From a virus, in the IMG/VR virus record IMGVR_UViG_3300022225_000548, positions 1 to 27,653 of that record: DNA of 27,653 nt. The stretch is one strand, 5' to 3'. How positions within the stretch are numbered: position 1 is the stretch's first letter; every line of letters begins with the position of its first letter. Positions 1,489 to 27,589 of this stretch are shown here, piece by piece. Position numbers and translations under genes: made by a program. The notes under the pieces were generated by a model. That model was given only the letters and a program-made list of their open reading frames with translations. It was not told the DNA's origin and made no database searches.

Positions 1489-1496
1489 TTATATCT

Positions 1497-1991: not shown

Positions 1992-2446
1992 TATAAACCC
2001 AACTGATTTCTGATATCTTTTGTTATTCCCATATCCTGACACGCCTCCAAAAATTCATATTGTCCATATACTTTTGCATTTTCAACATCAAGTCTTCTAT
2101 CATAATTATCATATTTATAACGTTCTTCTTCTGGAATTTCAATAACAGTAGCATATCTCCAACTCCAAATTTCAGGTGTACCTTCTGGAAAAATTATACC
2201 ACGCGTTCCCATATTAATTACTGAAGGAAACCATATAATATCGCGTTTCTTATCTTTAATTTTTAAATCTTGTACAAGTTTAGGTGATTTTTTAAGATTA
2301 TCAGTTAATTGTAAACTACCTACTTCATAACGAGAATCACTCATAAAACCACAATTAAAACACAAAAAAGAACTATAATCTTCTTGTATTTCCTCAAAAC
2401 ATCTATCAACATCAAAACATACTGGACAATCTATTACACGTTCCAC
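1991..2446 (-). CDS. Conserved phage protein with N-terminal zinc-finger-like cysteines, 151 aa
   Basis: Starts with GTG (RBS-like AAGG upstream, inside the glycosyltransferase tail gap of one base after its stop). The first 35 residues contain CPVCFDVDRC and FLCFNCGFM, four or five cysteines in a zinc-ribbon arrangement. The rest (IIWFPSVINMGTRGIIFPEG, then WSWRYATVIEIPEEERYKY) looks like a strand-rich domain. I recall similar unannotated proteins in marine T4-like phages next to the following gene. No function assigned. The stop overlaps the next ATG as TAATG, supporting the start chosen for that gene. Confidence 0.75.
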   Translation of the reverse strand: MERVIDCPVCFDVDRCFEEIQEDYSSFLCFNCGFMSDSRYEVGSLQLTDNLKKSPKLVQDLKIKDKKRDIIWFPSVINMGTRGIIFPEGTPEIWSWRYATVIEIPEEERYKYDNYDRRLDVENAKVYGQYEFLEACQDMGITKDIRNQLGL

Positions 2447-2447
2447 G

Positions 2448-3779: not shown

Positions 3780-3787
3780 TATAACTC

Positions 3788-7664: not shown

Positions 7665-8171
7665 TTAATAATCACCGTGACCTATACTACCTAATACATT
7701 TATTCCGAGTTCTTCTATTTTATTTTCCTCAATACCCCACTTAACGCATATTTCTCGTAATTCAAGCATACCACCTTCAGTAAGATATAACATTTCTATC
7801 ATATCAATAGCTTCTTTTCTACTATATTCTTCTTGATTTCTAATAATATTGATTAACCATTCTGGATGTTCCATTTGGTTTCTCCTTTTCGTGTATTTTA
7901 AAAATTGTTTACCTTTTGGTAAAACATTTATATAAAGATTATATAAATCTTTTGATTCTAAATTATATTTCTGAAATTCATTAACTAAATCTATCCATTC
8001 CATTTTCATAGATAAAAATCTATGAATCATATAATTAGACCATGTTTTTATATCATCTTCTGTAAGAGTATCCCAATAATCAGGATTCTGAATCGCCGTT
8101 ACTTGATTCAGATGTTGGAACAGATTTTTCCTCTTTTGGTTCTGTTTTTTTCTTTTTGTAGTCTGTTTCAT
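7665..8171 (-). CDS. 62: Clamp loader small subunit, T4 gp62-like
   Basis: A 168-aa protein (T4 gp62 is 187 aa). The segment WSNYMIHRFLSMKMEWIDLV followed by LYNLYINVLPKGKQFLKYTK parallels the T4 gp62 pattern YSKFMVENALSQFPE and FNYLMAAVPRGKRYGKWAK, in the same order and spacing, which is the basis for the call. The gp62 partner is expected because a gp44 homologue lies about 1 kb upstream. The only ATG start (8171) gives a very basic N-terminus encoded inside the FmdB gene; GGTAAAGGG lies just upstream but is also FmdB coding sequence. A non-ATG start near 8100 cannot be excluded. Function: bridges the gp44 subunits in the clamp-loader complex. Confidence 0.7.
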   Translation of the reverse strand: MKQTTKRKKQNQKRKNLFQHLNQVTAIQNPDYWDTLTEDDIKTWSNYMIHRFLSMKMEWIDLVNEFQKYNLESKDLYNLYINVLPKGKQFLKYTKRRNQMEHPEWLINIIRNQEEYSRKEAIDMIEMLYLTEGGMLELREICVKWGIEENKIEELGINVLGSIGHGDY

Positions 8172-8645: not shown

Positions 8646-9248
8646 CTAAATTATTTCATCCACTAATCCATATTTCAAACACGTTTTTGCATCCCACAAT
8701 AAATCATGTTTTAATATTTCATCTATTTTTTTCATTGGAACTTTTGTATATTCTTTATAAACATTTTTAATAGTTTCCATCATTAAATCTAAATTCTTTT
8801 TCTCATCTTCTATTTCAGAATATTTTCCCCACAATGTTGAAGATAACTGATGAATCATCATATAAGAATTTCTACTAATAAATCTTTTATTACCAACAAC
8901 TGATAAAAACGTTGCGGCACTTGCACAAAACCCATCTACATAAGTATAAACTGGAACTTTACACCTCAGTATAGTATCCATAGATGAAATACCTGCAGTA
9001 ATTGAACCACCACCTGAATTTATAAATACTTTAATTGTTGGGTACTCAATATCTAAAGTATTAGCAAGATTTAAACTTTTAGACTCTATCTCACCTATTT
9101 TTTTATTTAACTCTACTACACTATTTCTTGATACACCAGAATAAAAATAAATTTTATTCTCATGAACTGAAATGTGTTTATCTTCATTTGGTTTTTGAGA
9201 TCCTTTTTTTAATATTTTTTTATCTTCACCCCAATATTTTTCTTCCAC
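8646..9248 (-). CDS. clpP: ClpP-family serine protease
   Basis: A 200-aa ClpP-like peptidase. The triad is present: S110 in GFCASAATFL, H133 in MMIHQLSS and D182 in KHDLLWDAKTC; the oxyanion loop INSGGGSITAG and the terminal KYGLVDEII also match. The first 25 residues are a charged extension before the first strand, lacking the usual ClpP N-terminal loop signature. Start is GTG, overlapping the gp44 stop as TAGTG, with AGGAG ten bases upstream; no in-frame ATG would keep the fold intact. No ClpX or ClpA ATPase is encoded nearby, so it either uses a host unfoldase or acts as a prohead-type or processing protease. The replisome neighbourhood argues against a simple capsid maturation role. Confidence 0.9.
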   Translation of the reverse strand: MEEKYWGEDKKILKKGSQKPNEDKHISVHENKIYFYSGVSRNSVVELNKKIGEIESKSLNLANTLDIEYPTIKVFINSGGGSITAGISSMDTILRCKVPVYTYVDGFCASAATFLSVVGNKRFISRNSYMMIHQLSSTLWGKYSEIEDEKKNLDLMMETIKNVYKEYTKVPMKKIDEILKHDLLWDAKTCLKYGLVDEII

Positions 9249-10165
9249 TATTTCACAACTCCTAACAATTCTATTATCATAGCCATAGCATTGATTTCTT
9301 TATCAACTACTTGACTATCACTTAATTCATATTTAGCAATTACCAAAATACATTCAGCAATATGACCTTTTCCATAACCATCTACTTCATCATACAACAA
9401 TCTAAATAAATCAGCAAAATCTGTAATTTGAGAATCAGCTACTAATTGTCTTATAGTTTTAAATGCATTTCTTTTATCTTGTGTTTTGAGTATTTCTAAT
9501 AATTTTAGTTTATAATCATTTTGAATAACACTTCCTTTATCCAAAGTTAAAATACTATTAACAACATTTCTTTGAGCTGTATTAATAATTCTACGAATAT
9601 CTGGATATCCTGAATTTATTAATATTTTTAACTCTTCTAATTCAAAATTAACTTCCTCTTCTTCTAAAATTTGATTTAGTCTTTGAGCTACTTCTGTTTT
9701 AGATGGTGGTACTATTTGAAAAGATTGACACCTACTTTGTATTGGGTCAATAATTCTTTCTACATAATTACAAGTCAATATAAATCTACAATGTTTACTA
9801 AACGTTTCCATAAGATTTCTTAAAGCGGCTTGAGCATTTGGTGTAATATAATCGCACTCATCAAGAATAATTATTTTAAAATCTTTAAAACCAATTGTAG
9901 ATGCAAAATTCTTAACCTTTGTCCTAACAGTTTCTACATTATTCTCATCACTTGCATTAATATAGATATAATCACATTCAATATTTTTAACAAGAATTTT
10001 AGCGAGAGTGGTCTTACCTGTACCAGCCTTTCCGTATAGTAAAAGATGTGGCAAGTCTCCACTCTCAAGGTAAACCTTGACCTTACTTTTGAGATGATCA
10101 TTCCCAATATAAGTATCAAGTGTTTCTGGCCGATATTTTTCAACCCATAATGTATTATTTTTCAT
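9248..10165 (-). CDS. 44: Clamp loader large subunit, T4 gp44-like AAA+ ATPase
   Basis: A 305-aa clamp loader ATPase (T4 gp44 is 319 aa) of the RFC small-subunit type, which opens the sliding clamp and places it on primer-template DNA. The N-terminus LWVEKYRPETLDTYIG is the RFC box. Walker A is GKAGTGKT (45-52), Walker B IIILDECD (about 98-105), sensor 1 ILTCNYVERI, and SRC with the trans-acting arginine finger is at 144-146 (DPIQSRCQSF). The C-terminal helical domain would form the collar. A gp62-like partner is encoded about 1 kb downstream. No strong Shine-Dalgarno is visible in the 3-nt gap before ATG, so translation may depend on the upstream gene. Confidence 0.95.
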   Translation of the reverse strand: MKNNTLWVEKYRPETLDTYIGNDHLKSKVKVYLESGDLPHLLLYGKAGTGKTTLAKILVKNIECDYIYINASDENNVETVRTKVKNFASTIGFKDFKIIILDECDYITPNAQAALRNLMETFSKHCRFILTCNYVERIIDPIQSRCQSFQIVPPSKTEVAQRLNQILEEEEVNFELEELKILINSGYPDIRRIINTAQRNVVNSILTLDKGSVIQNDYKLKLLEILKTQDKRNAFKTIRQLVADSQITDFADLFRLLYDEVDGYGKGHIAECILVIAKYELSDSQVVDKEINAMAMIIELLGVVK

Positions 10166-11570: not shown

Positions 11571-12293
11571 TTAATCTACATCTTGTACCGCTACAAGATA
11601 ATATGTAGCATCATAATCATCTATTTTGAAATTAATTCTTGCCAAACCATCATTACTAACTTCGAGAGTAGCACTTTCACATTCCTTATTCGCTGTAAGA
11701 ATATCTTTGAAATAATTAGCATTAAATGAAATCAAATTCATTGATTGATATTCATCTACATTAACTGGAATTATAACTCTATTTGTATTAATAGAGGCAT
11801 AACCAATAACAACTTTAACATTATTATTATCAGTAATAACAGTAAATGTATCTGTTTCAGGTAAAGCACTTTTTCCAGAAATAAACTTTTGAATAAATTG
11901 AGTAGTAACATCAACTTTTAATCCAAAAGTTTGTGGAAGGTTTTGTGGATTTGGCGGTTTATTAATTACAGTAGTATCTGATAACATAAAATTAACAGAA
12001 GATGCTGAATCTGTTAGCTTAAATGAATGAGCTTTATCTCCAGCTTTAGCAACTACCATTGTTATATCATTGTCAAGAACTGACAACAATTTAAGAAGTT
12101 GATCTGTATTATATACCCCAAATTCTCCATTTTCAAAATTCCAATTTTTCATTGATAAAATTCCAAGTAATGATTTATCACCTGTTGTAAATCTTGTATG
12201 TAATACATTATCTTTAGATTCTAAAATTACTGCATTAACTGTTCCACCAAGATTATATTTATCAATAAATTTTACGAATTTTTGTTTATCCAT
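11571..12293 (-). CDS. 45: Sliding clamp, T4 gp45-like
   Basis: A 240-aa DNA polymerase processivity clamp (T4 gp45 is 228 aa), expected to form a trimeric ring loaded by the gp44/62 complex and, in T4, also to link replication to late transcription. The sequence has no enzymatic motif, as expected. The N-terminal MDKQKFVKFIDKYNLGG, the FENGEFGVYNTDQLLKLLSVL segment and the strand-rich repeats ending ATYYLVAVQDVD match the two-domain clamp layout of T4-like phages. The context is decisive: it directly follows the gp43-like polymerase and precedes the clamp loader. AGGAG lies nine bases before the ATG. The downstream glycosyltransferase gene begins immediately after its stop. Confidence 0.88.
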   Translation of the reverse strand: MDKQKFVKFIDKYNLGGTVNAVILESKDNVLHTRFTTGDKSLLGILSMKNWNFENGEFGVYNTDQLLKLLSVLDNDITMVVAKAGDKAHSFKLTDSASSVNFMLSDTTVINKPPNPQNLPQTFGLKVDVTTQFIQKFISGKSALPETDTFTVITDNNNVKVVIGYASINTNRVIIPVNVDEYQSMNLISFNANYFKDILTANKECESATLEVSNDGLARINFKIDDYDATYYLVAVQDVD

Positions 12294-12351: not shown

Positions 12352-14853
12352 TTAAAAAAATCTTTCTATTGTTTTAGATTTATCAGTTGGTTCAGACCAA
12401 CTCATACTATCATATAACATCATAATTTTTTTATGTAAAGCGTGTTTATAAATTTTTTCTGGATTTATATATGTTTTTATAAATTTTATTATTTGTGGAG
12501 CATCATCATAACCCTTAAACGCCATAACCTGTAATCCAAATTCATTTTGTTTTAAATAAACCCATTTTATTTTCTCATTATTAACTATTGATTGATATTT
12601 TTTATCTAACTTATAATATTTTAATAAATCATTATGTACAATAGAGGCTTTAACATGAATAGGTGTTCCTTTTTTATAACCCCTAAACAAATTATCAGAT
12701 TCTATTTGATATTTATTTAATCCTTTAACCCCTGTAGGAATTGCTATTTTTTCAAAAGGTACAAGTTTCATACTATCTTTAAAATTAACTATAAATTTAT
12801 CTAAGTTATCTTTTGGAACATCCATCAAAATATCTTCAAGTAATTTTGATAACATTTCTTTCATAGCTATAGGAAAACTTGACCGAACTGTATCTAATCC
12901 TTTAATCATCATCTTATTAACTTTTTTACCATTATCGTTAATAATTTTTAATCCATATCTTTTCTTTGTAACAAATAATCCACTTTTTGCAATAACTTCT
13001 TGTTTAATTTCAAACCTATGTTTATCTAAATTACAAAATTTCTTAGCAAAATAATCATATCCCTTATTCAAATATTCTTGAACTTCAGATGCTATTTCTA
13101 AAATCACTTTAGACATTTTTTCTTCATTTTTAGTGTTCAAATCAGGATATCTATTTTTTACAAGTGGTAAAGCAGAATAAAAAACTGAATCAGTATCAAT
13201 ATAAATACAATAATTTTCATTATCATTTAATTCTTTATTATAATAATAATTAACAACCTTCTTAGTAAATTTAATGAGAGATTGACCTGTAGTTGTAACT
13301 GCTTCAGCGTTGTCAACATCATAAAACCTAAATACAGGTAATCCTAAGACACCATATAATGAATTTAAAACAACCTTTTGAAGATATTGTCTTCTATCAA
13401 AATAATCTGATTTTTCTTTATCACCTTCCTCATGAAACTTTTTAGATAATTTCCTATATTCAACTCGTTCATCAAACCATTTTTTTAATAACGCAGGTAA
13501 CAATCCATCTTTATCTGAACGATACATAACACCATTAGTTGATACTGAAACTTTTTCATTATCAAGAAAACTTTTTAATTCTACCTCTGTAAACTTTCCT
13601 ATTTCCTTTTCCCCGTGTAATATTGTATAAGTTTTTTTATTACCTATTTGTAAAAATTCCTCAGGATTCCATCCTTTAATCTTACCAATCTTTGTTTCTG
13701 GTGAAATATTCAATGACATAATACAAGATGGATACATAGATGTAATATCTAAATCATATACCCAATCATGTTTACCTTTAATTGGGTCTTGTACATACGC
13801 ACCAATAAATTTATCATCTTTATTAAAATCTTTTGGTCTTGGTGCTTTATTTGGTGCTACAATATTATTTTTTTTCAAGTACACCAAAATCGCACCTTCA
13901 AGATAATGAGATGACATATAAACAGATTCATAAGGTGTATGACCAAGATGTGCTAAACCACGAGCAATTTCTATAAAATCTAATTTATCATCAAGTTTTT
14001 TAACAAGTTTTACATCTTGTAAATTATACTCTACAAATGTTTTTAAATCATTCTCATATAACTCATTCAATGTACCTTCATATTCAATCTTTTTATCACC
14101 AACTTCTAACTCTCCAATCACATCTAATCTATATGAAGATTTTTGACTAAATGTAAATCTTTTATATAAACTAAGATAATCAAGAATACTAACTCCTGCT
14201 ATAATATATCTTTTTTTAAAATTACTCCACCTAACTATGTGTATTGGTGATAATAAATTTGCAACATCTTGACCAAGAATTTGTTGAGCTCTATTATAAA
14301 GATATGGTATATCAAAAAATTCTATATTCCAACCTGTTAAAATAGTAGGTTGTATTTCCCTATACTTAACATAAAATCTATTTAAAAGTTCATATTCAGT
14401 TAAAAAAGTTTCTATCGTTACATTCTCTCCAAAATCTTCATTTAAAACTGACTTTTCGTCAAGAACTAAACAAAAATATTCATCAGTAAGTGGATCATTG
14501 AACGCTATAGAAGTTATCTTATTATTAGCTATTTCAACATCTGGAAATCCATCAGTAACTTCAACTTCAATATCAATTATCATAACTTTATGTCCAACAG
14601 ATGGTTCATCAGATTCAGTATATTTATCAACTAAAACTCTTATTTCTGGATTAACATCAGATTCAAATAAATTAGGTTGGTCTTTATCCCATTTTGTTAT
14701 TTTGGTTAATTTATCACCATATAAAGAAACATAATTACCAGTTCTATTTTTAGTATATGCATACTTCTTATAACGAAAAGTTTGTTGTCCAAACTTATCA
14801 TCCCAAATATGCATTTTATTTTTTCTTCTATCGTAGAAGATATTCTGGTACAT
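12352..14853 (-). CDS. 43: Family B replicative DNA polymerase, T4 gp43-like
   Basis: An 833-aa replicative polymerase with proofreading (T4 gp43 is 898 aa). Exonuclease motifs: Exo I IDIEVE (D94, E96), Exo II TGWNIEFFDIPYL (N176, D181), Exo III YNLQD (Y276, D280). Polymerase motifs: A DLDITSMYPS (D369), B KVVLNSLYG (K493, N497, Y500, G501), C YIDTDS (D553, D555). All catalytic acids are present, so both activities should be intact. The C-terminus ends SKTIERFF, consistent with a clamp-binding peptide like the hydrophobic tail of T4 gp43. It is the first gene of a replisome run (polymerase, clamp, clamp loader) preceded by its own promoter-like sequence. A hairpin lies over codons 5-10. Confidence 0.96.
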   Translation of the reverse strand: MYQNIFYDRRKNKMHIWDDKFGQQTFRYKKYAYTKNRTGNYVSLYGDKLTKITKWDKDQPNLFESDVNPEIRVLVDKYTESDEPSVGHKVMIIDIEVEVTDGFPDVEIANNKITSIAFNDPLTDEYFCLVLDEKSVLNEDFGENVTIETFLTEYELLNRFYVKYREIQPTILTGWNIEFFDIPYLYNRAQQILGQDVANLLSPIHIVRWSNFKKRYIIAGVSILDYLSLYKRFTFSQKSSYRLDVIGELEVGDKKIEYEGTLNELYENDLKTFVEYNLQDVKLVKKLDDKLDFIEIARGLAHLGHTPYESVYMSSHYLEGAILVYLKKNNIVAPNKAPRPKDFNKDDKFIGAYVQDPIKGKHDWVYDLDITSMYPSCIMSLNISPETKIGKIKGWNPEEFLQIGNKKTYTILHGEKEIGKFTEVELKSFLDNEKVSVSTNGVMYRSDKDGLLPALLKKWFDERVEYRKLSKKFHEEGDKEKSDYFDRRQYLQKVVLNSLYGVLGLPVFRFYDVDNAEAVTTTGQSLIKFTKKVVNYYYNKELNDNENYCIYIDTDSVFYSALPLVKNRYPDLNTKNEEKMSKVILEIASEVQEYLNKGYDYFAKKFCNLDKHRFEIKQEVIAKSGLFVTKKRYGLKIINDNGKKVNKMMIKGLDTVRSSFPIAMKEMLSKLLEDILMDVPKDNLDKFIVNFKDSMKLVPFEKIAIPTGVKGLNKYQIESDNLFRGYKKGTPIHVKASIVHNDLLKYYKLDKKYQSIVNNEKIKWVYLKQNEFGLQVMAFKGYDDAPQIIKFIKTYINPEKIYKHALHKKIMMLYDSMSWSEPTDKSKTIERFF
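14824..14840 (-). promoter_or_regulatory. Hairpin in the first codons of the DNA polymerase gene
   Basis: The minus-strand sequence TCTTCTA-CGA-TAGAAGA is a perfect 7-bp stem with a 3-nt loop at nucleotides +14 to +30 of the polymerase coding region. In T4 and RB69 the gene 43 product represses its own translation through an RNA hairpin operator at the ribosome binding site. This hairpin is further downstream and its loop is shorter, so an operator role is only a possibility. Confidence 0.35.
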
Positions 14854-16993: not shown

Positions 16994-18361
16994 TTACTCA
17001 AACCCCTCTACTTTCTTACCCATATCTTTATATTTATTAGCTAATTCTTTTCTTAAAAATTCTTCTTTATTATCCATCTTACCCTGTACTATTTTTCCAG
17101 ATCTTGAACTACTTTCGTGTATTTTTACAAGTCCAATATTAGTATTTATTGTAGAAGGATAAGTAATACCATCAATGCCAAATCTATTTTTTATCACATG
17201 AAACCTACCTGTGTTAGCTATTTTATCTTCAACTTTTCTACTCATACTCATTACAAAATCAGCTGTCATAACTTTACTATAATCTTCCGCAATTTTATCA
17301 GCACCAATCACATCTTCTTCCAACGCTGACCGATTTGCTTGTGAGGCTGTCCAAATAGGAATTTCTAATTCTCCAGCTACAGATCTCAAATCTTCATATA
17401 TCGTACCAAGTGCGTGTCTCTTCTCTCTAAAATGTCCAAGTGGTAATAATATATCAGCATAATCAACAATAACTAAATCAGGTTTAACACCGCTTAATTC
17501 AATTTGTTTTAAATGTGCACTAATTGTTTGAACTGATGCTGATTTTGTTGGAAAATATTTTATTAATAATTTCCCTTTTAAATTTCTAATTTTTTTCTCA
17601 ACTTCTTCTCTATAATATCTAATATTCGCTGTTGTAACTCCACAAAAAATAGAATCATATCTTAAACCAACATAATTCTCATTTAATTCTAATGAATAAT
17701 GCACAACTGTTTTACCATTTTTAATAACACCAGAACCTAACGCTTGAAGTGTCCAAGATTTACCAATACCCGCTGGTGCTACAATAACACCAAGTTCCCC
17801 CTTACCTAAACCACCATCCATAATTTCATTTACAACATCCCACGGCGTTTCAATTGTATCTCTACTTGACTTTGTTAATCTAACTTCAAGTGATTCAATA
17901 TAATCTTGACCGAGATCTCTTGATGCTCCTGCATTCATAGCAGTATCAATAATTTTCTTAATAGAATCATAATCTTTATTTTCTAATAAATCAACAGATT
18001 CTATAATAGCATTTTTTAACGCTTGATTTTTACAAAAATCCAAAGTTTGTTCTTGAACAAATTCTAAATCTGTAGCTTCATTGTGTTTCCAAACTTCTCT
18101 CAATTTATCTACTACTGAAACTTTCAAAACATCATTATCAAGTTCTCCAATCATAACTTTTAAAACTTCTAACGTTGGTTGTTTTTTATATTTATAATAA
18201 TATTGTATTATAGTATTAACTAACCACTTATTCGCATCACTATCGAACATTGGTGGTGTTAAAATATCACTAATAGTCTGTATAAATTCTGTATTATTTA
18301 ATAATAATGCTAAAATTTTAGACTGAAATGATGTTCCGTATTTTGTTAATGTTTCACTCAT
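16994..18361 (-). CDS. 41: Replicative DNA helicase, DnaB/gp41-like
   Basis: A 455-aa hexameric helicase of the DnaB/T4 gp41 group. The N-terminal about 150 residues are helical, like the N-terminal and linker domains of gp41. The C-terminal RecA-like core has Walker A APAGIGKS (195-202), HYSLELNENY (motif 1a region with a conserved Glu), Walker B LVIVDYADIL (D300), and TASQANRSALEEDVIGADKIAEDYSKVMTAD split over the conserved Q and R motifs. VIKNRFGIDG is near the arginine finger region. T4 gp41 is 475 aa. No primase gene (gp61) lies within this window. The ATG overlaps the methylase stop as TAATG. The helicase gene is followed by an 86-nt gap before the ribonucleotide reductase gene. Confidence 0.93.
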   Translation of the reverse strand: MSETLTKYGTSFQSKILALLLNNTEFIQTISDILTPPMFDSDANKWLVNTIIQYYYKYKKQPTLEVLKVMIGELDNDVLKVSVVDKLREVWKHNEATDLEFVQEQTLDFCKNQALKNAIIESVDLLENKDYDSIKKIIDTAMNAGASRDLGQDYIESLEVRLTKSSRDTIETPWDVVNEIMDGGLGKGELGVIVAPAGIGKSWTLQALGSGVIKNGKTVVHYSLELNENYVGLRYDSIFCGVTTANIRYYREEVEKKIRNLKGKLLIKYFPTKSASVQTISAHLKQIELSGVKPDLVIVDYADILLPLGHFREKRHALGTIYEDLRSVAGELEIPIWTASQANRSALEEDVIGADKIAEDYSKVMTADFVMSMSRKVEDKIANTGRFHVIKNRFGIDGITYPSTINTNIGLVKIHESSSRSGKIVQGKMDNKEEFLRKELANKYKDMGKKVEGFE

Positions 18362-19233
18362 TATAAAAACTTCTCAATTCCAAAAACCTTAATTTTCTCT
18401 GATGGATAATCTAATTCACCTTCTTTTCTAAATACCAAAATATATTCGTGTATTTTACTTGTATATCTTTTAGATGCAACCTTACCAATTTGCATACTTG
18501 CAAATGGACTTTTGTTTTTTATAACTATTAAATCGTGAAAGTTAAAACCAACTTTTTTAAACAATCTAATACAATCCGAATGAAATGGCCTGAATTCTAT
18601 ACCATCTCTCCAATCTGCACATACCCAAGTTAAAAATCCACCTGATTTTAAAACTCTTTTTATATTTACCGCACATATTTCTATCATTCCCAAAAATGTT
18701 TCATAATCATTTATATCTGATAGTTGATTTTCTACAGATTCATATTTTTCTAATTGATGATATGGTGGACAAGTCATAACTAAATCTGCGAAATTATTTG
18801 GTGTTTGTCTCATATAACAACCATCATCCAAATAAATTGTAGCGTCTAAGTTATGTTTTGTCAAATGTTGATTAACTCTTTTAACTGTATTTGGTGCTAT
18901 ATCATATCCATAATATTTTCTACCAAGTTTTGAACTCACAAACGCTCTTGTTAATCTACCAGCAAACGGGTCAACAACTACACTATCCACTACAGACCAA
19001 TATGACAAAATATCTTCAGTCAATCCTGCATGAAATTCACTAAAACCAAGACCACTTAAATATTTTGCATCATCACTTCTTCTTTGTTCTTTTATACCAT
19101 CATTTAAATATGCATTCTTCCATTGTTTTTTACTTTGTCTTTCTGGTTCAATAATAGAAACTGGTAACCAACCAAATTGATCTACAACTTTTTCATTATC
19201 ATCTAATGGTAATATTTTTTTATACATCTTCAT
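18361..19233 (-). CDS. DNA methyltransferase (N6-adenine or N4-cytosine type)
   Basis: A 290-aa SAM-dependent amino-methyltransferase. VVVDPFAG (about 85-92) is the SAM-binding motif I, followed by GRKYYGYDIAPNTV with an acidic residue typical of motif II. MTCPPYHQLEKY (153 onward) is catalytic motif IV. WVCADWRDG and a C-terminal KVASKRYTSKIHEYILVFRK region complete the fold. The order motif I then IV, with little room between, leaves the target-recognition region downstream of motif IV. No restriction endonuclease partner is adjacent, so it is probably an orphan phage methylase for anti-restriction or marking of phage DNA. Target sequence is unknown. The start could be either of two close ATGs; the first overlaps the exonuclease stop. 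It joins the helicase by TAATG. Confidence 0.87.
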   Translation of the reverse strand: MKMYKKILPLDDNEKVVDQFGWLPVSIIEPERQSKKQWKNAYLNDGIKEQRRSDDAKYLSGLGFSEFHAGLTEDILSYWSVVDSVVVDPFAGRLTRAFVSSKLGRKYYGYDIAPNTVKRVNQHLTKHNLDATIYLDDGCYMRQTPNNFADLVMTCPPYHQLEKYESVENQLSDINDYETFLGMIEICAVNIKRVLKSGGFLTWVCADWRDGIEFRPFHSDCIRLFKKVGFNFHDLIVIKNKSPFASMQIGKVASKRYTSKIHEYILVFRKEGELDYPSEKIKVFGIEKFL

Positions 19234-20239
19234 TTGTTTTTTCAGCGTATTGGTTTAATTGATTAAAATTAGTAAGTAACCAACTATTAACATTTGGTAA
19301 TGCACTATATAACTTATCTTCTAAAAACATTGTTTGAAATTTATATTTTATTAATCTATTAATCGGTTCATTAACTTTTTCTATTATCTTTGTTTTTGTA
19401 GAACCAGAAATATCTACGTCTGATAATTGCATCAAATTATAATTTCGTTCTATTATTTCTTTAGATTCTGGTAATTCTGTAATAACTTCATCTATCTCAA
19501 CTATACGATTCTCACTCAAAAACGGTAATTTTTTTTGTATAGTTTTCAATCCTAATCCTTTTACACCAGGAATATTATCTGACTTATCTCCATCTAATAC
19601 TCTATACCATATAAGGTTATGAGATGATATACCATACTCATCTAACACAGTATCTTCATCATACATTTTCTTTTTAGTTGGACTCCATACTTTTATTCTA
19701 CTGTTTGCCAACTGAAGAAAATCTTTATCAGTAGACATAACTGTTAACTCTGATTCAGTAAGAACTTGTCTACAAATATAACCAATCGTATCATCTGCTT
19801 CAATGTTATCATAAGATAAAACAGTTACAGGAAGTGTTTCTAAATATTCAACCACTCTCTGTAACTGCATTATCATATTTTGTTTCTCATCCTCTTGGGA
19901 TGCAAAATCATATGCTCGATTTACTCTATATTTTGTTTTTCTTTTTTGTTTATACTCAGGATATATTTTACGGCGACGTACAGACCCACCTTTACCATCA
20001 AATACAATAATACATCGAGTGGGTCTGATCATTTTAATAGTATAACCAATACTTCTTAGAAAACCAACTATTCCACCAACGTGAATACCATCATCATTAG
20101 TAGTTGGTATAACACTAAATACCCTTATAAAAGTATTCAGACCATCTATTATAAGTACTTTATCATTAGGTTCACCACTATCTATTTTACCGCCTTTAGA
20201 TTTTATCTCTTCTAAAATAGAGAGATATTTTCTATTCAT
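19220..20239 (-). CDS. rnh: 5'-3' exonuclease / flap endonuclease (T4 RNase H-like)
   Basis: A 339-aa FEN-superfamily nuclease that would remove RNA primers and 5' flaps during lagging-strand synthesis. The acidic metal ligands are all visible: IIDGLN (D32), VFDGKGG (D81), YDNIEADDTIGY (E147, D149, D150), STDKDFLQL (D171, D173) and GDKSDNIPGVKGLGLKT (D218, D221), the last being the helix-hairpin-helix-type DNA-binding motif. YPEYKQKRK matches the helical arch region. Length is close to T4 RNase H (305 aa) and to the nuclease domain of Pol I. It lies between recombinase and methyltransferase genes and overlaps both, consistent with one replication and repair operon. T4-type 5' nuclease is the best call; no polymerase domain is attached. 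Confidence 0.92.
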   Translation of the reverse strand: MNRKYLSILEEIKSKGGKIDSGEPNDKVLIIDGLNTFIRVFSVIPTTNDDGIHVGGIVGFLRSIGYTIKMIRPTRCIIVFDGKGGSVRRRKIYPEYKQKRKTKYRVNRAYDFASQEDEKQNMIMQLQRVVEYLETLPVTVLSYDNIEADDTIGYICRQVLTESELTVMSTDKDFLQLANSRIKVWSPTKKKMYDEDTVLDEYGISSHNLIWYRVLDGDKSDNIPGVKGLGLKTIQKKLPFLSENRIVEIDEVITELPESKEIIERNYNLMQLSDVDISGSTKTKIIEKVNEPINRLIKYKFQTMFLEDKLYSALPNVNSWLLTNFNQLNQYAEKTNEDV

Positions 20240-21326
20240 TATCTAAAATTTCTGTTACTGTTACATCATCTATACCAAAATTTTTATCATATTGTAAAAT
20301 ACTTTTCCCACATATTAATTTATAACAATGTTCTTTAAATTTCTCATCTTCTAATTGTTTTGACCAATCTTTAGATTGAAATTTTAATTCTTTTCCTTCA
20401 TGATTTTCCATAGTGTACCAAGCACCACCTTGTTTCACCAAATTATGGTCTTTTAAAACAGTTAACCAACTACCATTGTTATCAATACCTGTTTCAAAAT
20501 ATAACTCAAAATCAGCATGTCTCATTGGAGGCCCAAGTCTATTCTTAACAACTTGAGCTCTCATTTTCATACCAATAGTATTCTTTTTAGTATCTTTAAC
20601 TTGACCAAGATTTTTCAATCTAATACGTGTAGATGCATGAAAGGGTAATGCTTTACCACCACTTGTTGTCCACGGGTCTCCAAACATTACACCAAGTTTC
20701 TGTCTAAGTTGATTAGTAAAAACAAGAGCTATCTTTTGTCTACCAATCATTTGAGTAATTTTTCTCATAGCTTTTGATATAATAATTGCTTTTGCTGTAG
20801 CCCAACCATCTTTATCAAAATCTGCTTCTAACTCTACCTTTGTAGTAGCTCCAGCAAGAGAATCTACTAAAATAGTTACTAATCTATCTTTATCTGATTC
20901 ACGAACTTTTACAACAATCTCTTCAATTGCTTCAAATACCGCTTCAACTGTTTCTAAATGTAAATATAACATACTTTCCACATCAATACCTATTGCACCA
21001 AGAAACTCAGTACTAACAGAAGTTTCTGTATCTATATAAACAGCTACTCCACCTTTACGTTGAGTTTCTGCTAATATATGAGCACCAAGTAGTGATTTAC
21101 CACTTGATTCTAAACCATTTATTTCTGTTATTCTACCAACTGCAATTCCACCATTAGGTTTATTAGCAATTGCTAAATCTAACATTGTTGAGCCTGTTGA
21201 AACAAACTCCTTTATATCTGTGGGTGTTATATCCGTTCCATCCAAAAAATAAGCAACTTTCATATCTTTGAATTGTTTATTTAAGGTTTCAGCTAATACA
21301 CCCGCCAATTCATCTCGTGTTGACAT
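20232..21326 (-). CDS. uvsX: RecA/UvsX-family recombinase
   Basis: A 364-aa strand-exchange ATPase. Walker A is GLESSGKS (71-78), preceded by GGIAVGRITEING. YIDTE (97-101) holds the conserved acidic residue, ILVDSLAG is Walker B, and VFTNQLRQK with GGKALPFHASTRIRL resembles the RecA L2 and core region. Length and motif spelling are nearer to bacterial RecA than to T4 UvsX, but in this genomic position it fills the UvsX role: loading on gp32-coated single-stranded DNA for recombination-dependent replication and repair. Start ATG is preceded by GGAG seven bases away. It overlaps the downstream exonuclease gene by 8 nt. The structured RNA lies in its leader and could control its translation. Confidence 0.92.
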   Translation of the reverse strand: MSTRDELAGVLAETLNKQFKDMKVAYFLDGTDITPTDIKEFVSTGSTMLDLAIANKPNGGIAVGRITEINGLESSGKSLLGAHILAETQRKGGVAVYIDTETSVSTEFLGAIGIDVESMLYLHLETVEAVFEAIEEIVVKVRESDKDRLVTILVDSLAGATTKVELEADFDKDGWATAKAIIISKAMRKITQMIGRQKIALVFTNQLRQKLGVMFGDPWTTSGGKALPFHASTRIRLKNLGQVKDTKKNTIGMKMRAQVVKNRLGPPMRHADFELYFETGIDNNGSWLTVLKDHNLVKQGGAWYTMENHEGKELKFQSKDWSKQLEDEKFKEHCYKLICGKSILQYDKNFGIDDVTVTEILDNE

Positions 21327-21419: not shown

Positions 21420-22175
21420 TTACTTATTAAATAAGTCGTCAAATGCATCAGCTGTTTTCTTAGCATCAAAATTTGATGTTTCAGGTAAAGAAGTTGATTC
21501 TTTAGTAGCTGATTCTTCATCAGTAGAACCACCTTTTAGATACCCATTTAATGCATCCGTAAGTTCTTCATAAGTCATTTCATTATAAACCTCACGAATA
21601 TCTTTTTGAGTTTCCTTTATGGTTTCTAAAACAGCCGCGTCTTCGGTAACTACGGTCTGATTTGGCTTGACTCTAATAGATGTTGATGGAAAAGATTTTC
21701 CAGTTTCTTCTGCTGTTTTAAATTCAACTACAACATCACGACCACTCGTTGGATCAGTAATATCTCCATAATCAGGGTCTGCTATAATACTAAGTAATTC
21801 CTGATAAACAGTTTTTCCGAATCCCCAAAATCTCACCCCTTGATTCTCTTCACCACGAACTACTACTGGTGTAAAAGTTCTCATTTTAGCTTCAATCTTT
21901 CTACCAAGACGATAATCATCCTTTGAACCAGTTGATTTGAGTTTCTGTGCAAACTCTTCAATTGGGTCTGGACGACCAAATGACTGTGGTGAAAGATAAG
22001 ACTTTCCACCTATATCATAGTGAAAATATAATTCGATAAAAGGATTTTCCTTGTTATGTTTATAAGGTACTATCCGAATTACCTGTTGACCAGGTTGCGG
22101 TTTCCAAAGATTGGATGTGCGATTGTTTGTTGTTTTAAGTTGATTAAGACGTTTTTTTATTGCATTTAAGTCCAT
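21420..22175 (-). CDS. 32: Single-stranded DNA-binding protein, T4 gp32-like
   Basis: A 251-aa homologue of T4 gp32, which coats single-stranded DNA during replication and recombination and contacts polymerase, helicase loader and recombinase. The N-terminus MDLNAIKKRLNQL resembles the basic LAST-like self-association region. The core includes LWKPQPGQQVIRIVPYK, FIELYFHYDI, SPQSFGRPDPI and RFWGFGKTVYQ, typical of OB-fold gp32 proteins. The C-terminus is acidic and ends KKTADAFDDLFNK, like the gp32 tail that binds replication partners. No cysteine is present, so the T4 zinc site is absent. T4 gp32 is 301 aa; this shorter form lacks mainly that zinc subdomain. Start ATG has AGGAG eight bases upstream. 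It is followed by a structured RNA element before recA. Confidence 0.92.
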   Translation of the reverse strand: MDLNAIKKRLNQLKTTNNRTSNLWKPQPGQQVIRIVPYKHNKENPFIELYFHYDIGGKSYLSPQSFGRPDPIEEFAQKLKSTGSKDDYRLGRKIEAKMRTFTPVVVRGEENQGVRFWGFGKTVYQELLSIIADPDYGDITDPTSGRDVVVEFKTAEETGKSFPSTSIRVKPNQTVVTEDAAVLETIKETQKDIREVYNEMTYEELTDALNGYLKGGSTDEESATKESTSLPETSNFDAKKTADAFDDLFNK

Positions 22176-22272: not shown

Positions 22273-22689
22273 TTATTTTTTATCTCTATCCCAAGTTTTT
22301 ACATCTACTATGGTATAAATTCTGGTTGGTATTTTAGTGAAACCATTTTCATTTGTTAACAATAAACAATTTTTATAATTTTCCCAGGGTATCGGAAATG
22401 TTTTATCTAACTTACCATCATTTAATTCTCTGATAACATCGTTTAGTGCATTAATCGTATAAAGGGTATTTGTATTCTTTTTTCTATGTAATGAAATTGT
22501 ATCTGGAATACCTTCAATATAATCTTCATCATATTCTACATTATAAGTACAAATTAATTGATGTTGATCAAGTTCATTCTGAAATACATATACCTTATCA
22601 AATACAATATCATTACATTCAATTATTATATTAACTGTTTCATAAAATTTATTTCGTTTAGTGAATGTACAAAGTAATTGTGTTCTCAT
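22273..22689 (-). CDS. Conserved phage protein of unknown function, 138 aa
   Basis: Joined to the upstream 687-aa gene by a TAATG stop/start overlap, so it is likely translationally coupled. The N-terminal half looks beta-rich with alternating hydrophobic residues (MRTQLLCTFTKRNKF, VNIIIECNDIVFDKVYVF). A central segment ISLHRKKNTNTLYTINAL is followed by a helix NDVIRELNDGK and a C-terminal strand region ending IYTIVDVKTWDRDKK. I know no characterised family for it and see no catalytic, metal-binding or membrane features. It sits immediately before the gp32 leader, so it is probably the last gene of the upstream transcription unit. Confidence 0.75.
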   Translation of the reverse strand: MRTQLLCTFTKRNKFYETVNIIIECNDIVFDKVYVFQNELDQHQLICTYNVEYDEDYIEGIPDTISLHRKKNTNTLYTINALNDVIRELNDGKLDKTFPIPWENYKNCLLLTNENGFTKIPTRIYTIVDVKTWDRDKK

Positions 22690-24752
22690 TATTGTTTATC
22701 CTTAATAAGTTGTTGAAACTCGTTTGTCCATTTATAAACTGTTTGTAATTTACCTAAAGGCCCATCTTTAGTTCTATTTCTTTTTTCCATAATTGGAACT
22801 CTTTCTTCACCAACCATCACATAAACTATACCTGTAGAACCTGTAACTCTATCACCTTTAGATATTTGTTTTTCAGTTTTATCAACTTGTAATTTTTTCA
22901 AAAATTCTTCTTTTGAATTAACTCCTAATGCCTTTTTCAATACATTTCCATCCAATACAACACCAGCGTGATTTGTTTCAAACATACCTCTATATTTATG
23001 AACACCTTGTTCACCTGATATTGCTCCCATATGTCCTTGTTTCCAAATATTATTACCCTCAATATGTGTTCCTAAACCAACACCATCAACATCTATTTGG
23101 TCAAGTTCCTCTATTTGTTTATCAAGTAAATCAATTGATTCTTTTCTAATATCTTCAATAGAATTATCTACGTTTGGGCCACCTTTATGTTTATTTAAAT
23201 CCGATATTACTCTTTGAACATTTTTAGGTGGATTCTCTACTTTAGTAGAATATAATAAGAAAGCTTTTGCCTGTTGTTCCTCTGTTGGTTCACTTTCACC
23301 ATCCCAGCCAACCTCTTTAAGATATTCACCAGAATTATGTTTTTGTCCTTCTATTTTTTGTCCATTTTCATCAAATCTATCTGTTGACCAATTTGTATTT
23401 TTCTTAAACTTTTTAATTACACCCTTCTCACCATCCCAATATTTTTGATTTCCAGCACCTATTGATTTCATAAAATCAATATCATCGGATTCAAAGTTAT
23501 CATTAACATATTTTGCAGGTTCACTTGTAACACTTCTTAGTTTAGTTTCTATTTCTTCTAAACTATCAGAATAATTTCTTCTCTCACCTGCAACCGCTTC
23601 CGACTCTTCTTGTGTTATTTTTCCACTATCTGCTAAAGATAAAATAGCATCATCTGTTTGTGTAGATTCTGCTTTTGTAGAAGATTGTGCAATTATAGCT
23701 GATGTTGAATCTTTATCAGATGTAAATAATATTGTAGCTTCACCAGTATCTTTATTTTTTATAATTGTTGCCGTATCTGATGGATTATCTCCGCCACCAC
23801 CAGCTCTAATTAGTTCTACTATCTCATCCTTTGGTATTTCATTACCATCTAAATCAACTACTTTTGATGCAGATTTTATATCTTCTTCTTGTTTCTTTAA
23901 ACCAACCTTATCACCAAAATATTCTGTAGTTTCTGAATTCTTCCATCCTAAATCTTTAGATGCATCTACTGACCTCTGATGTTTTCTCTTACCACTTCTT
24001 ACTGCTATCAATGTTTTACTATATAACTCTCTTTGTTCTTTTGGTAAATCTTCAGGTAATTCTTTTGTTGATAACTTACCAGCCATTTTCACACTCGAAT
24101 TATCTTTTGCTAATTTAGAATCACCATATTTATCCAAAATACTTTTTACTAATTCTTCTTCTGATGCATCAGGATTATCACGAAGTAAATCTGCAACTTC
24201 TCCACTCATAATCTCATTATACATTGAACCAGCATTTCCAGGCGCGGCACCTTTTACAAATCCACTTTCAATATGTTTTTGTTTTGATTTATGATCACCT
24301 TTTGGTTTTTTTTCTTTAGGTTCTCCTGGTTCTTCACCACCATCTCTTTTATAATCTGGATTTATATCTGTATTATGTGGCTTTCCTCTATCCGCTTTTG
24401 CATCAGGGCCCTTAACAGTTGTAGTAGGTTCTTTTGTTTTACCTGTATCTAATAAATCTTTAGCCTGTTGATGTGCTGGATGTTCTGGATTTTCATATGC
24501 TGATTTTACTGAAGTTTCCCTGTCATTACCTTTATCATCTTTATACTTTATTCTTGTTTTAAGAATTTTTTCTCTATCTTTTTCTTGTTCATTTAAATTG
24601 TGTAATACTCCATCTATAACCTTTTGAGGCCATCCAAATTCAAACAATATCTGTCTTAAATGTAACTGATGAGCAATGTTTCGAGTTCGAATTATACCAT
24701 CCGATACTCTATAAGACCATTCTAATAAAATCTTATCAAAATCTATAATCAT
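22689..24752 (-). CDS. Large unidentified phage protein, 687 aa, with charged linker
   Basis: Start chosen at the ATG that overlaps the upstream stop as ATGA; the reading frame is open 16 codons further upstream but that extension lies inside the polymerase gene. The first 50 residues (MIIDFDKILLEWSYRVSDG, then helices ending VIDGVLHNL) form a compact helical segment. Residues about 80-160 are a low-complexity Lys/Pro/Glu/Gly linker. A repeated-looking central domain follows (GFVKGAAPGNAGSMYNEIMSG and ATIIKNKDTGEATILFTSDK), and the C-terminus contains GEQGVHKYRGMFETNHAGVV. No transmembrane segment or signal peptide is visible. From memory, similar proteins occur in marine T4-like phages and are often labelled structural, but no catalytic motif supports any specific role. 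Codon use matches its neighbours. Confidence 0.75.
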   Translation of the reverse strand: MIIDFDKILLEWSYRVSDGIIRTRNIAHQLHLRQILFEFGWPQKVIDGVLHNLNEQEKDREKILKTRIKYKDDKGNDRETSVKSAYENPEHPAHQQAKDLLDTGKTKEPTTTVKGPDAKADRGKPHNTDINPDYKRDGGEEPGEPKEKKPKGDHKSKQKHIESGFVKGAAPGNAGSMYNEIMSGEVADLLRDNPDASEEELVKSILDKYGDSKLAKDNSSVKMAGKLSTKELPEDLPKEQRELYSKTLIAVRSGKRKHQRSVDASKDLGWKNSETTEYFGDKVGLKKQEEDIKSASKVVDLDGNEIPKDEIVELIRAGGGGDNPSDTATIIKNKDTGEATILFTSDKDSTSAIIAQSSTKAESTQTDDAILSLADSGKITQEESEAVAGERRNYSDSLEEIETKLRSVTSEPAKYVNDNFESDDIDFMKSIGAGNQKYWDGEKGVIKKFKKNTNWSTDRFDENGQKIEGQKHNSGEYLKEVGWDGESEPTEEQQAKAFLLYSTKVENPPKNVQRVISDLNKHKGGPNVDNSIEDIRKESIDLLDKQIEELDQIDVDGVGLGTHIEGNNIWKQGHMGAISGEQGVHKYRGMFETNHAGVVLDGNVLKKALGVNSKEEFLKKLQVDKTEKQISKGDRVTGSTGIVYVMVGEERVPIMEKRNRTKDGPLGKLQTVYKWTNEFQQLIKDKQ

Positions 24753-26023
24753 ACAAATTTCTCCGTTATATCTTTCATTTCGTGATAGTCTACTCCCCAA
24801 CTCACTTTAACAGGAAATTTACCATTTTGTTCTATTATCTCTTTCACTTTCTTCAAGTAATTTAAACCATCTTCCATATCAAAGTCAAGTAAAAAACTAT
24901 CATAAGAATATAAAATTAATTTACTCTTATCATTTTTTATTTCAGGAATTAATTGACTTAACACCCTCATATTATTTTCAGTTTCCATAAGTTGTATTGT
25001 ATAATTAAACAACTTATTTTTATTCATATCTGTCAAATTTTTCTTATATATTCTCTTATTATAAATATCTGAAACAATAAATTCTTTAGAATTATATTTA
25101 TTCCATAAATTTTCTATATAATCATAAACTCTACTAAAATATGGATTTATTTGCCATACTTCTATTGGTATTCCACCATAAAGATACTGAAATGATTTTC
25201 TTTTTGATTCTTCATAATCACAACTATAAAATCTTGCCATATGCTCATGTACTGAACCTTCAGGAAATTTATAACCTATTTTATCAGCAATTAATCTTAA
25301 ATGATATGCATCAAAATCCATTTCAACTAACACTCCATTTTTAAATCTACTCACATATGGTTTTCTACTACCATCTGTTTTATTTAATGCTGCAAAATTA
25401 ATACCACCAAATCTATTTGATGGTCTACCAGTTGAAGTATATAAATTATATTCACTATAAACAAAACCATTTGTTGTTTGTAATCCATTTGATTCTATAT
25501 AACTTAAATTATCCAACACATCATTATTATATGACAAATTGACATTACTTGAATATTTTTCAACTGTATCTTTAAGAACTGTTGATATATTACGACATTT
25601 TTCCAAATGTTTAAATACAGGAATTATAACATTTACATCATCTTTCATATAATATCTCATATTAAAAAATTGATGCGCGTTAGTATCCATCTCTTCCATA
25701 TTCAATGGAATATTTGTTGTTACGTAATGTAAAAGATTTATATCAACAACATTATCTAATTGAATAAAATGATTTAAATATTTTCTATCGTAAGTGTATT
25801 TTTTTGTATTAGAATTAAGATTCGGTATATCTATATCAAGAGTTTCAGCATGATTAAATGGTAAAATAAACTCATCACCATCTAATGTTTGAATATATAA
25901 CAAAGATAATTCAGTATCAACTGGATGTTTCTTACTGTCACAAGATATCGGTATTACAATACTATCTTTAGTATTATATACTTCAAGAAAATCTTCAATT
26001 TGTTTTTTATTTTCTAATAACAC
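24749..26023 (-). CDS. Diverged family A (Pol I-like) DNA polymerase with degenerate 3'-5' exonuclease domain
   Basis: A 424-aa protein whose C-terminal half carries family A palm and fingers motifs: STGRPS (T198-R200), motif A VEMDFDAYHLRLIAD with D236 at the Klenow D705 position, motif B K274-x3-F278-x3-Y282-G283 (Klenow K758, F762, Y766), NYTIQ (N340, Q344, Klenow N845/Q849) and motif C SYDSFLLDF with D375 at the D882 position. The Glu after that Asp is Ser, and the steric-gate Glu710 position is His. The N-terminal 180 residues can be threaded on the Klenow 3'-5' exonuclease domain, but the DxE and other acidic catalytic residues are not evident. Start is GTG with AAGG six bases upstream; it overlaps the upstream gene by 17 nt. 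Both metal-binding Asp survive, so polymerase activity is plausible. Role beside the family B enzyme is unknown. Confidence 0.8.
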   Translation of the reverse strand: MLLENKKQIEDFLEVYNTKDSIVIPISCDSKKHPVDTELSLLYIQTLDGDEFILPFNHAETLDIDIPNLNSNTKKYTYDRKYLNHFIQLDNVVDINLLHYVTTNIPLNMEEMDTNAHQFFNMRYYMKDDVNVIIPVFKHLEKCRNISTVLKDTVEKYSSNVNLSYNNDVLDNLSYIESNGLQTTNGFVYSEYNLYTSTGRPSNRFGGINFAALNKTDGSRKPYVSRFKNGVLVEMDFDAYHLRLIADKIGYKFPEGSVHEHMARFYSCDYEESKRKSFQYLYGGIPIEVWQINPYFSRVYDYIENLWNKYNSKEFIVSDIYNKRIYKKNLTDMNKNKLFNYTIQLMETENNMRVLSQLIPEIKNDKSKLILYSYDSFLLDFDMEDGLNYLKKVKEIIEQNGKFPVKVSWGVDYHEMKDITEKFV

Positions 26024-26951
26024 CTATAACCTTATCTATTGCATTAAAAACCATTGGTGGGTCTATTTCTTTTGAACATTCAAATTCTCTTTCAGTTCCC
26101 TTATGGTCTGGACATACATTCCAATCACCCTTTAAATGTAATGTCTCATCTCTGTGCCAACAACCATTACAAACTTCATCATTATGAACGTGAATACATT
26201 TATGTTGAAATTCAAACCAGGGTTTTGTCATTCCATGTATCATTATTACATATTTATTTAATGCCCACGCTAACCAAGATAATCCTGAACCTAATCCTAT
26301 GAAAAATTCACAATGAATTAATTCATTAATTCTTTTATCTAACGATTTACCTTGACTTTTAATTACACCTTTCGGTAATTTATTTATATAACCATCTTGA
26401 CTTTGATCCACATTCAAATCAATATCTAAAACTTTATAACCTTTATGTTTTAAATACTTTACTACATAATCCCAACCATTAGGATAGTTCCAATACTTTA
26501 ATTGTGGGCCATTTGAATGTACACCAATACATACATACTTTTCTTTTATGGGTCTACCATAATTTTTAAAATGTAAGTTTGGTTTCTTTTCTATAAATGA
26601 TAATCCAAGTATTTCTGTAGCTGATTGTTGTAAAGAAATATATTGTCTTCCATCCCACGAACAACCTATTTTATAACTAATTATATTTTCAGCACTAAAT
26701 GGTAATTTAAAACATAACTCTCCATTACCAAATGGTTCTACATATTTATCTTCACTAAGAAATTCTATATCAGAATAATTCGGTTTTAATAATGGAATCA
26801 TTTCTTGCCTTGGTAGAAATAACTTTACTTTACATTTATTTTCAACTCTAAATTGTTCCACATAAGGAAACCACGCGAGCGTATCTCCAAGGCCTTTTGA
26901 CTGAAATATTATATAAACCACTTTACCCTGAATCGGATAGAACTGTTTCAT
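26007..26951 (-). CDS. Autotransporter-heptosyltransferase-like (BAHT/TibC type) glycosyltransferase
   Basis: A 314-aa GT-B glycosyltransferase resembling the heptosyltransferase (GT9) superfamily. The N-terminal SKGLGDTLAWFPYV segment matches the heptosyltransferase loop carrying the catalytic Asp (here D23), and GLGSGLSWLAWALN (about 220-232) fits the donor-binding region. The C-terminus has CNGCWHRDE followed by two more cysteines (C261, C264, C280, C292). The spacing C-x2-C-x15-C matches the iron-binding cysteines of the bacterial TibC/BAHT family, which transfer heptose to Ser residues of autotransporter adhesins; the last spacing is shorter here (11 residues). Start ATG is preceded by AAGG at a good distance. 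Inference: it glycosylates a protein or surface sugar, perhaps a virion protein or host surface component. Fold assignment is fairly sure, substrate unknown. It overlaps the next gene by 17 nt. Confidence 0.8.
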   Translation of the reverse strand: MKQFYPIQGKVVYIIFQSKGLGDTLAWFPYVEQFRVENKCKVKLFLPRQEMIPLLKPNYSDIEFLSEDKYVEPFGNGELCFKLPFSAENIISYKIGCSWDGRQYISLQQSATEILGLSFIEKKPNLHFKNYGRPIKEKYVCIGVHSNGPQLKYWNYPNGWDYVVKYLKHKGYKVLDIDLNVDQSQDGYINKLPKGVIKSQGKSLDKRINELIHCEFFIGLGSGLSWLAWALNKYVIMIHGMTKPWFEFQHKCIHVHNDEVCNGCWHRDETLHLKGDWNVCPDHKGTEREFECSKEIDPPMVFNAIDKVIGVIRK

Positions 26952-26977: not shown

Positions 26978-27589
26978 TTAATAATTTTCTATAAACTTCA
27001 ATTTTTTTACAGTATCGTCTTTTGAACCTTTTTTTGGTTTCCAATATTCTAATGGTGTTAATAATTTACTAATACCAGGTAATATTTTTTCTTGTTCTTT
27101 CATTACTTTTTCATTTTTACGTATAACATCTTCTTTTAAACCTGATATAGTCCAATCAAAATTTATATTCAAATATAGTGGATTTCCATTACCAGAATCT
27201 TTTTCTGAAACCTCGAAGACTTCTGCATTAATATCATTTGTTAGTCTTGTAAAAGATCTTCTAATATTACCTATTCTATAATCACTATCCGTTGGAGTTA
27301 TTTTAAAATGTTGTGGATAAGTTAACCGAGTTGGATTTTTTAATATCTTATAATTTTTAAAAGAAGTAAATTCACTTCTATTAATTTTCTGCATCTCTCT
27401 TGATTTTAAATCACTTTTTAAACCAGTTAAATACACCTCATTCTTATTTAATGAATAATAAATAGAATATACTATATTAGGTTTAACTTTACCACCCATA
27501 TCTTTATATATAAACTCATTTGGTAAAGTTACTAAACCTTGAATTGTTCTTTCAGAATTATTTTTTAGATTATTAAATTTTTTCATCAT
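26978..27589 (-). CDS. Conserved phage protein of unknown function, 203 aa
   Basis: I do not recognise a characterised family. The protein is soluble-looking, rich in Lys, Asn and Thr, with no signal peptide, membrane segment or cysteine pattern. It begins with two Met codons and either could be used; the first overlaps the upstream stop as TAATG. The N-terminal part (LPNEFIYKD, then YSIYYSLNKNEVYLTGL) looks beta-rich. The C-terminal third is helical and charged (VIRKNEKVMKEQEK) before a PLEYWKPKKGSKD segment. Similar unannotated proteins occur, as far as I recall, in marine T4-like phages, possibly as structural components, but nothing in the sequence proves that. It ends just before a 26-nt spacer carrying the ATATATATTA motif. 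Confidence 0.75.
   Translation of the reverse strand: MMKKFNNLKNNSERTIQGLVTLPNEFIYKDMGGKVKPNIVYSIYYSLNKNEVYLTGLKSDLKSREMQKINRSEFTSFKNYKILKNPTRLTYPQHFKITPTDSDYRIGNIRRSFTRLTNDINAEVFEVSEKDSGNGNPLYLNINFDWTISGLKEDVIRKNEKVMKEQEKILPGISKLLTPLEYWKPKKGSKDDTVKKLKFIENY

Follow-up and report, generated by a model that had tools for sequence, protein, structure and literature searches.

A thumbless family A DNA polymerase homologue and its linked companion gene in T4-related marine phages

A thumb is counted among the core elements of right-hand DNA polymerases. In the polymerase of Thermus phage Tt72 it has been mapped, at the expected length, to residues 230-336 (PMC9324360). The Tt72 polymerase carries D-S at motif C and is an active enzyme; both of its Asp mutants have 4% activity, E389A (Klenow E710) has 35% and S616A (Klenow E883) has 76% (PMC9324360). 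Here we describe mini-PolA, a family of phage proteins that has lost the thumb and kept both catalytic Asp residues. The member analysed is encoded in IMG/VR virus record IMGVR_UViG_3300022225_000548, whose 27,653 bases, probably a genome fragment, are our window; it is 424 amino acids long (24749..26023, minus strand, as are all features given below in the form start..end). Existing annotations of family members read either hypothetical or, as for gene 1 of Flavobacterium phage immuto, 'DNA polymerase family A', so that for the latter the homology is already recorded in GenBank. The open-access literature yielded no paper on a thumbless family A polymerase, on the mini-PolA family or on its linked partner h138, a 138-amino-acid protein (22273..22689).

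The reading frame starts with GTG at 26023 and stops at 24749. It cannot extend further 5', because the GTG directly follows an in-frame stop, and an identical copy in contig L005 is open from the same GTG codon. Used as a single query, the window mini-PolA has no meaningful match in Pfam, PHROGs or PDB sequences; a PDB match to Lmo0066 (0.064) was put down to chance. Among 29 diverse family members, 13 match PF00476 (DNA_pol_A; best 1.2e-11) and seven match the phrog_17 DNA polymerase profile (best 1.7e-13), and a profile built from 66 members matches Bst and Taq Pol I in the PDB at E values of 0.003-0.05. Aligned by hhalign with a reference set of PolAs of Pol I and T7 type, the family profile gives a probability of 98.7 and an E value of 1.4e-16 over residues 183-420, with D236 on Klenow D705 and D375 on Klenow D882. 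The AlphaFold model (predicted local distance difference test, pLDDT, 92.3; predicted template modelling score, pTM, 0.89) has the right-hand palm and fingers fold of Pol I. In the predicted secondary structure D236 ends a strand and D375 sits where a beta hairpin turns, which is the arrangement in the Pol I palm, and Foldseek matches the model to Klenow, Bst, M. smegmatis Pol1 and Pol theta/nu at E values of about 1e-14 to 1e-16, with template modelling scores up to 0.77 (query to Klenow). A preliminary description of this DNA had proposed a diverged family A polymerase and had set beforehand, as its test, a profile search and a predicted structure against Pol I; both gave the family A match, the profile alignment with the two Asp pairs in register, and profiles and model together confirm mini-PolA as a homologue of family A DNA polymerases. 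The gene is clearly under purifying selection, the ratio of nonsynonymous to synonymous substitution rates (dN/dS) being 0.10-0.17 over the polymerase part and 0.14-0.28 over the N-terminal part.

The motifs named in that description (STGRPS, motif A with D236, motif B, NYTIQ and motif C with D375) were all recovered at the residues concerned, the first as TSTGRPSN at residues 196-203. Motif A, EMDFDAYHLRLI (25289..25324), holds D236 and, at the steric-gate position E710, H241. In motif B, the O-helix, YEESKRKSFQYLYG (25175..25216), K274, F278, Y282 and G283 align with K758, F762, Y766 and G767, and Y270 with R754. NYTIQ (residues 340-344; 24992..25006) supplies N340 and Q344, the equivalents of N845 and Q849, and motif C, LYSYDSFLLD (24884..24913), lies on the predicted hairpin with Y374-D375-S376 at H881-D882-E883. 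Conservation was counted over 154 relatives, down to about 30% identity. Both catalytic Asp residues are present in 154/154, as are the equivalents of R668, N675, F762, Y766, G767 and Q849; those of K758 (in at least 153) and N845 are nearly invariant. This invariance of the Asp pair points to a working metal site, and makes unlikely the earlier suggestion of a polymerase turned into a structural factor.

Other active-site positions are changed with similar regularity. E710 is His and H881 is Tyr in all 154 relatives; in 153 of them R754 is Tyr, so that motif B departs from R-x3-K-x3-F/Y-x3-YG though its K, F, Y and G are kept, and Q677 and N678 are Ala, while R841 has mostly become Asn. E883 is Ser in 135 and Ala in 19, leaving no D-E acid pair in motif C. 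The His and the D-S had been read correctly from the single sequence; the D-S is not the oddity of a degenerate enzyme. T7 RNA polymerase also has D-S at motif C, and a dead or RNA-polymerase-like site was considered. We dropped it, since D-S is shared by full-length PolAs of Roseobacter phages CRP-738 and CRP-212 and Pelagibacter phage HTVC033P and by the active Tt72 enzyme (PMC9324360). Given the activity of that enzyme and of its S616A and E389A mutants, neither the change at E883 nor that at E710 speaks against activity.

Two features go beyond what the preliminary description had observed, the missing thumb and the linked h138. In Klenow an 'E-x-NG' element stands just before the thumb; G180 marks it in mini-PolA, and R200 corresponds to R668. 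The junction between them, GLQTTNGFVYSEYNLYTSTGRPSN (residues 180-203; 25415..25486), which ends in the R200 motif, leaves a G180-R200 distance of 20 residues, and across 155 members the distance is 20-38; Klenow has 124 residues here, T7 gp5 has 198, and the PolAs of immuto (gene 71) and CRP-738 have 214 and 246. Judged from this spacing, about 100-220 thumb residues are missing and mini-PolA is without a thumb subdomain. The fingers are shorter as well (38 residues from motif A to K758, against 47-74, and 70 from K758 to Q849, against 83-119), and the R668-D705 and Q849-D882 spacings are near normal. Residues 1-160 (25544..26023, an approximate boundary taken from predicted secondary structure) align with Klenow, T7 gp5 and CRP-738 as what is left of a 3'-5' exonuclease domain: non-acidic residues (P/Q and Y/Q/L in the relatives) stand where Exo I has its acids, Exo II and Exo III have no counterpart in the alignment, and the proofreading signature (Exo I D-x-E, Exo II D, Exo III Y-x3-D) is not found in mini-PolA. 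The N-terminal part had been described as an exonuclease domain of preserved length without its acids; the acids are indeed gone, but the length is not kept, the alignment showing the Exo II and Exo III segments deleted.

The gene for h138 lies downstream of mini-PolA in 171 of 194 loci, with a median gap of 1961 bases. All 23 loci without it have at most 2255 bases downstream, so that, given this median gap, none is a clear case of absence, and the two are linked wherever more than 2.3 kb follows. In the reverse direction, wherever h138 occurs without mini-PolA the locus extends less than 2.9 kb upstream. Among 50,697 phage records, only six are matched by h138 queries taken from three lineages, and all six have mini-PolA. 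They represent three lineages only, the IMG/VR loci overlap in part, and the counts are therefore not of independent events. Ten residues of h138 are invariant. Its AlphaFold model is confident (pLDDT 92.1), and a PDB fold search with this model gave no match (best E 0.056). The linkage suggests that h138 may be a processivity or DNA-holding partner of mini-PolA. Between the two genes the window carries h703 (22689..24800), which encodes a 703-amino-acid low-complexity protein without a family match; it is present in 48 of 159 loci and looks like replaceable cargo.

In annotated phages, tblastn found mini-PolA relatives in Flavobacterium phage immuto (32% identity), Microcystis phage Mel-JY01 (31%) and a 484-kb uncultured phage, at E values of 1e-41 to 1e-61, and weaker matches (7e-5 to 5e-3) to Roseobacter and Pelagibacter phage PolAs of the ordinary full-length kind. 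Three mini-PolA and three h138 queries retrieve the same six phage records of three lineages, beyond which only ordinary PolAs match, and only with the mini-PolA queries. One scan of IMG/VR gave 206 relatives and another at least 588 stretches; 155 of the proteins fall into 17 clusters at 50% identity, and mini-PolA is a large viral family found in many T4-related marine phages. A match in a human-faecal phage (4e-6) was rejected as an ordinary full-length Pol I. The only match in genome contigs, a 4.1-kb contig in a Nitrosopelagicus metagenome-assembled genome, is probably a stray viral contig and was not accepted as a host-borne copy. In a palm-only tree the mini-PolAs form one clade on a long branch; with six PolA references only, the tree says nothing firm about origin.

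Mini-PolA had been described as a second polymerase beside an intact gp43-type enzyme, and this reading of the locus stands. The window encodes an 833-amino-acid family B replicative polymerase of gp43 type (PolB; 12352..14853) with intact exonuclease DIE, NSLYG and DTDS motifs, a gp45-type sliding clamp (11571..12293), and large gp44-type (9248..10165) and small gp62-type (7665..8171) clamp loader subunits. Closer to mini-PolA are four conserved neighbours, namely a gp32-like single-strand DNA-binding protein (SSB; 21420..22175), a UvsX-like recombinase (20232..21326), a 5'-3' exonuclease of FEN or RNase H type (19220..20239) and a DnaB-like replicative helicase (16994..18361). The order mini-PolA, h138, SSB, UvsX, 5'-3' exonuclease, DnaB, often followed by ribonucleotide reductase, recurs in the 159 loci as far as each of them reaches, with other genes interspersed variably. 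PolB co-occurs in 13 of 20 records holding mini-PolA, and the records without it are contigs below 90 kb or immuto. The notion that mini-PolA occurs only beside PolB was rejected, since immuto carries instead a second, full PolA of 777 amino acids (gene 71). In every record large enough to tell, mini-PolA is thus additional to a main replicase.

Searches for other replication functions covered the window and related records. A T4 gp61/DnaG-type primase (phrog_47) is found in immuto, Mel-JY01, the 484-kb phage (LR756508) and a 130-kb contig (G001), which weakens the idea that mini-PolA replaces an absent primase; it was not detected in a 132-kb contig or in smaller fragments, which may be incomplete, and the phrog_47 profile has no match anywhere in the window, mini-PolA included. 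Across 11 related records no UvsY was found and no gp59 above the cut-off, T4 being positive as control in both cases, and G001 holds a sub-threshold gp59 match. The same 11 records gave no Y-family (IMS) polymerase, and T4 has none either.

Several further genes lie in or around this block. An N6/N4 DNA methyltransferase gene (18361-19233) stands between the 5'-3' exonuclease and DnaB genes; among the 159 loci this insert is seen only in the near-identical contigs L005 and L006. Only these two, among related loci, also have the family 9 glycosyltransferase gene (26007-26951) directly upstream of mini-PolA, whose start it overlaps by 17 bases. Upstream in 47 of 159 loci is a conserved gene of 203 amino acids (26978-27589) with no family match. 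Several glycosyltransferase-like genes occupy 871-5203 and 10169-11569, one of them (a weak Pfam match) between the clamp and clamp-loader genes, and a ClpP-like protease gene (8646-9248; 'head maturation protease' in PHROGs) adjoins the clamp loader amid the replication genes. A B12-dependent, class II type ribonucleotide reductase (14928-16907) is diverged or unmatched in many relatives.

As to the role of mini-PolA, for which translesion synthesis and primer extension had been among the early suggestions, we infer an accessory polymerase that is active, does not proofread and carries out short synthesis near the replisome, with h138 as partner, and give this about an even chance of being right. 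The protein, made up of palm, fingers and a degenerate exonuclease domain, would catalyse DNA synthesis with a pair of metal ions bound through D236 and D375 and with H241 in the role of the steric-gate Glu. Without a thumb it would make only short additions at low processivity, and the holding of primer-template would be supplied by other proteins, h138 first and then the gp32-like SSB. Its job might be to extend recombination primers in UvsX D-loops, or lagging-strand primers, or to fill gaps left by the neighbouring 5'-3' exonuclease; mini-PolA and the FEN-type enzyme would then do as a pair the work that Pol I otherwise does in one chain. This reading is argued for by the homology, the kept Asp and other active-site residues, the low dN/dS, the Tt72 precedent, the thumb loss seen in the motif spacing, the conserved gene order, the h138 linkage and the separate replicase in records of sufficient size. 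Several points weigh against it. We know of no family A polymerase that works without a thumb, and the open-access literature yields none that is thumbless; the position of the thumb deletion derives from sequence alignment and predicted secondary structure; mini-PolA has other residues in place of R754, R841, Q677, N678, H881 and E710, several of them important to Klenow; the substrate (gap, primer or D-loop) is deduced from neighbours only; and because the whole replication block is conserved, the linkage singles out no one role. A stronger version, possible but doubtful, would make mini-PolA and h138 an obligate two-subunit polymerase at the fork of marine T4-like phages, h138 replacing the thumb of a His-gated site that might act on ribonucleotide-containing or recombination primers.

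The open, thumbless and non-proofreading site might instead bypass lesions or modified bases, so that mini-PolA would serve damage tolerance in place of a Y-family polymerase. The missing exonuclease acids, the location with SSB and UvsX, the lack of a Y-family enzyme in the 11 records searched and the 7-deazaguanine genes of immuto phages (looked for in immuto only) would suit such a role. T4, however, likewise does without a Y-family polymerase, the neighbourhood holds no gene specific to the damage response, and the minor-groove fidelity residues R668 and Q849, together with F762 of the O-helix, are kept in 154/154, unlike what a loosened site would show; we regard translesion synthesis as unlikely. 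Less probable again is an organiser of replication or recombination with little or no catalysis, whose fold would bind forked DNA and SSB and load the helicase in place of T4 gp59 or gp33. T4 genes 33 and 59 lie just upstream of 32, the place that mini-PolA and h138 occupy here, and neither UvsY nor gp59 above the cut-off was seen in these phages; but both proteins evolve fast and may escape their profiles, G001 has the sub-threshold gp59 match, and an organiser would have no need of invariant catalytic Asp and O-helix residues.

Archaeo-eukaryotic primases likewise function with no thumb. With that precedent, the uniform change of E710 to His, the loss of the thumb and the nearby DnaB and SSB could suggest a primase-like enzyme, or an RNA/DNA polymerase that supplies DnaB and PolB with short RNA-containing primers by starting or extending them. 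Since four of the large records already have a phrog_47 primase, they offer no gap for it to fill, and the bulky His may still exclude ribonucleotides; we think this slightly less credible than the organiser. It is very improbable that mini-PolA is a pseudo-enzyme or relic with no catalysis and no definite part in replication. The missing thumb and exonuclease acids and several changed Pol I active-site residues would fit this, but the metal-binding Asp pair is universal among the relatives, the h138 linkage is invariant and dN/dS is well below 1.

Whichever role applies, a large natural family that is thumbless, keeps both catalytic Asp and has one small constant companion makes it possible to test directly what a thumb contributes and whether a separate protein can replace it. 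Mini-PolA would be an unrecognised component of the T4-type replisome in many marine phages and, were the obligate two-subunit version true, would form with h138 a new kind of accessory replisome polymerase.

Compared with known systems, mini-PolA shares with Klenow and Bst Pol I the palm and fingers fold, the motif order from R668 to D882 and the residues D705, K758, F762, Y766, N845 and Q849. It differs from them in having no thumb and only a relic of the exonuclease domain, and in the Klenow residues E710 (H), R754 (Y), R841 (mostly N), Q677/N678 (A), H881 (Y) and E883 (S/A). The best single-sequence matches outside the family, the PolAs of CRP-738, CRP-212 and HTVC033P (7e-5 to 5e-3), have in common with it VSRFxNG before motif A, a YGG-type motif B and D-S at motif C with a further Asp downstream; unlike mini-PolA they are about 680-720 amino acids long, with a thumb region and an exonuclease domain, and keep the steric-gate Glu and H881. 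The Tt72 polymerase has the same D-S, in which setting its two Asp are essential and the Ser dispensable, whereas it is full-length with a thumb, proofreads strongly and has Glu at the steric gate (PMC9324360). Closest are immuto gene 1 (QQO91919.1), WWT39333.1 of Mel-JY01 (hypothetical) and the protein of LR756508, which at 31-32% identity belong to the same family and each have h138 close downstream; immuto differs from the window in replicating with its separate gene 71 PolA and not with a PolB.

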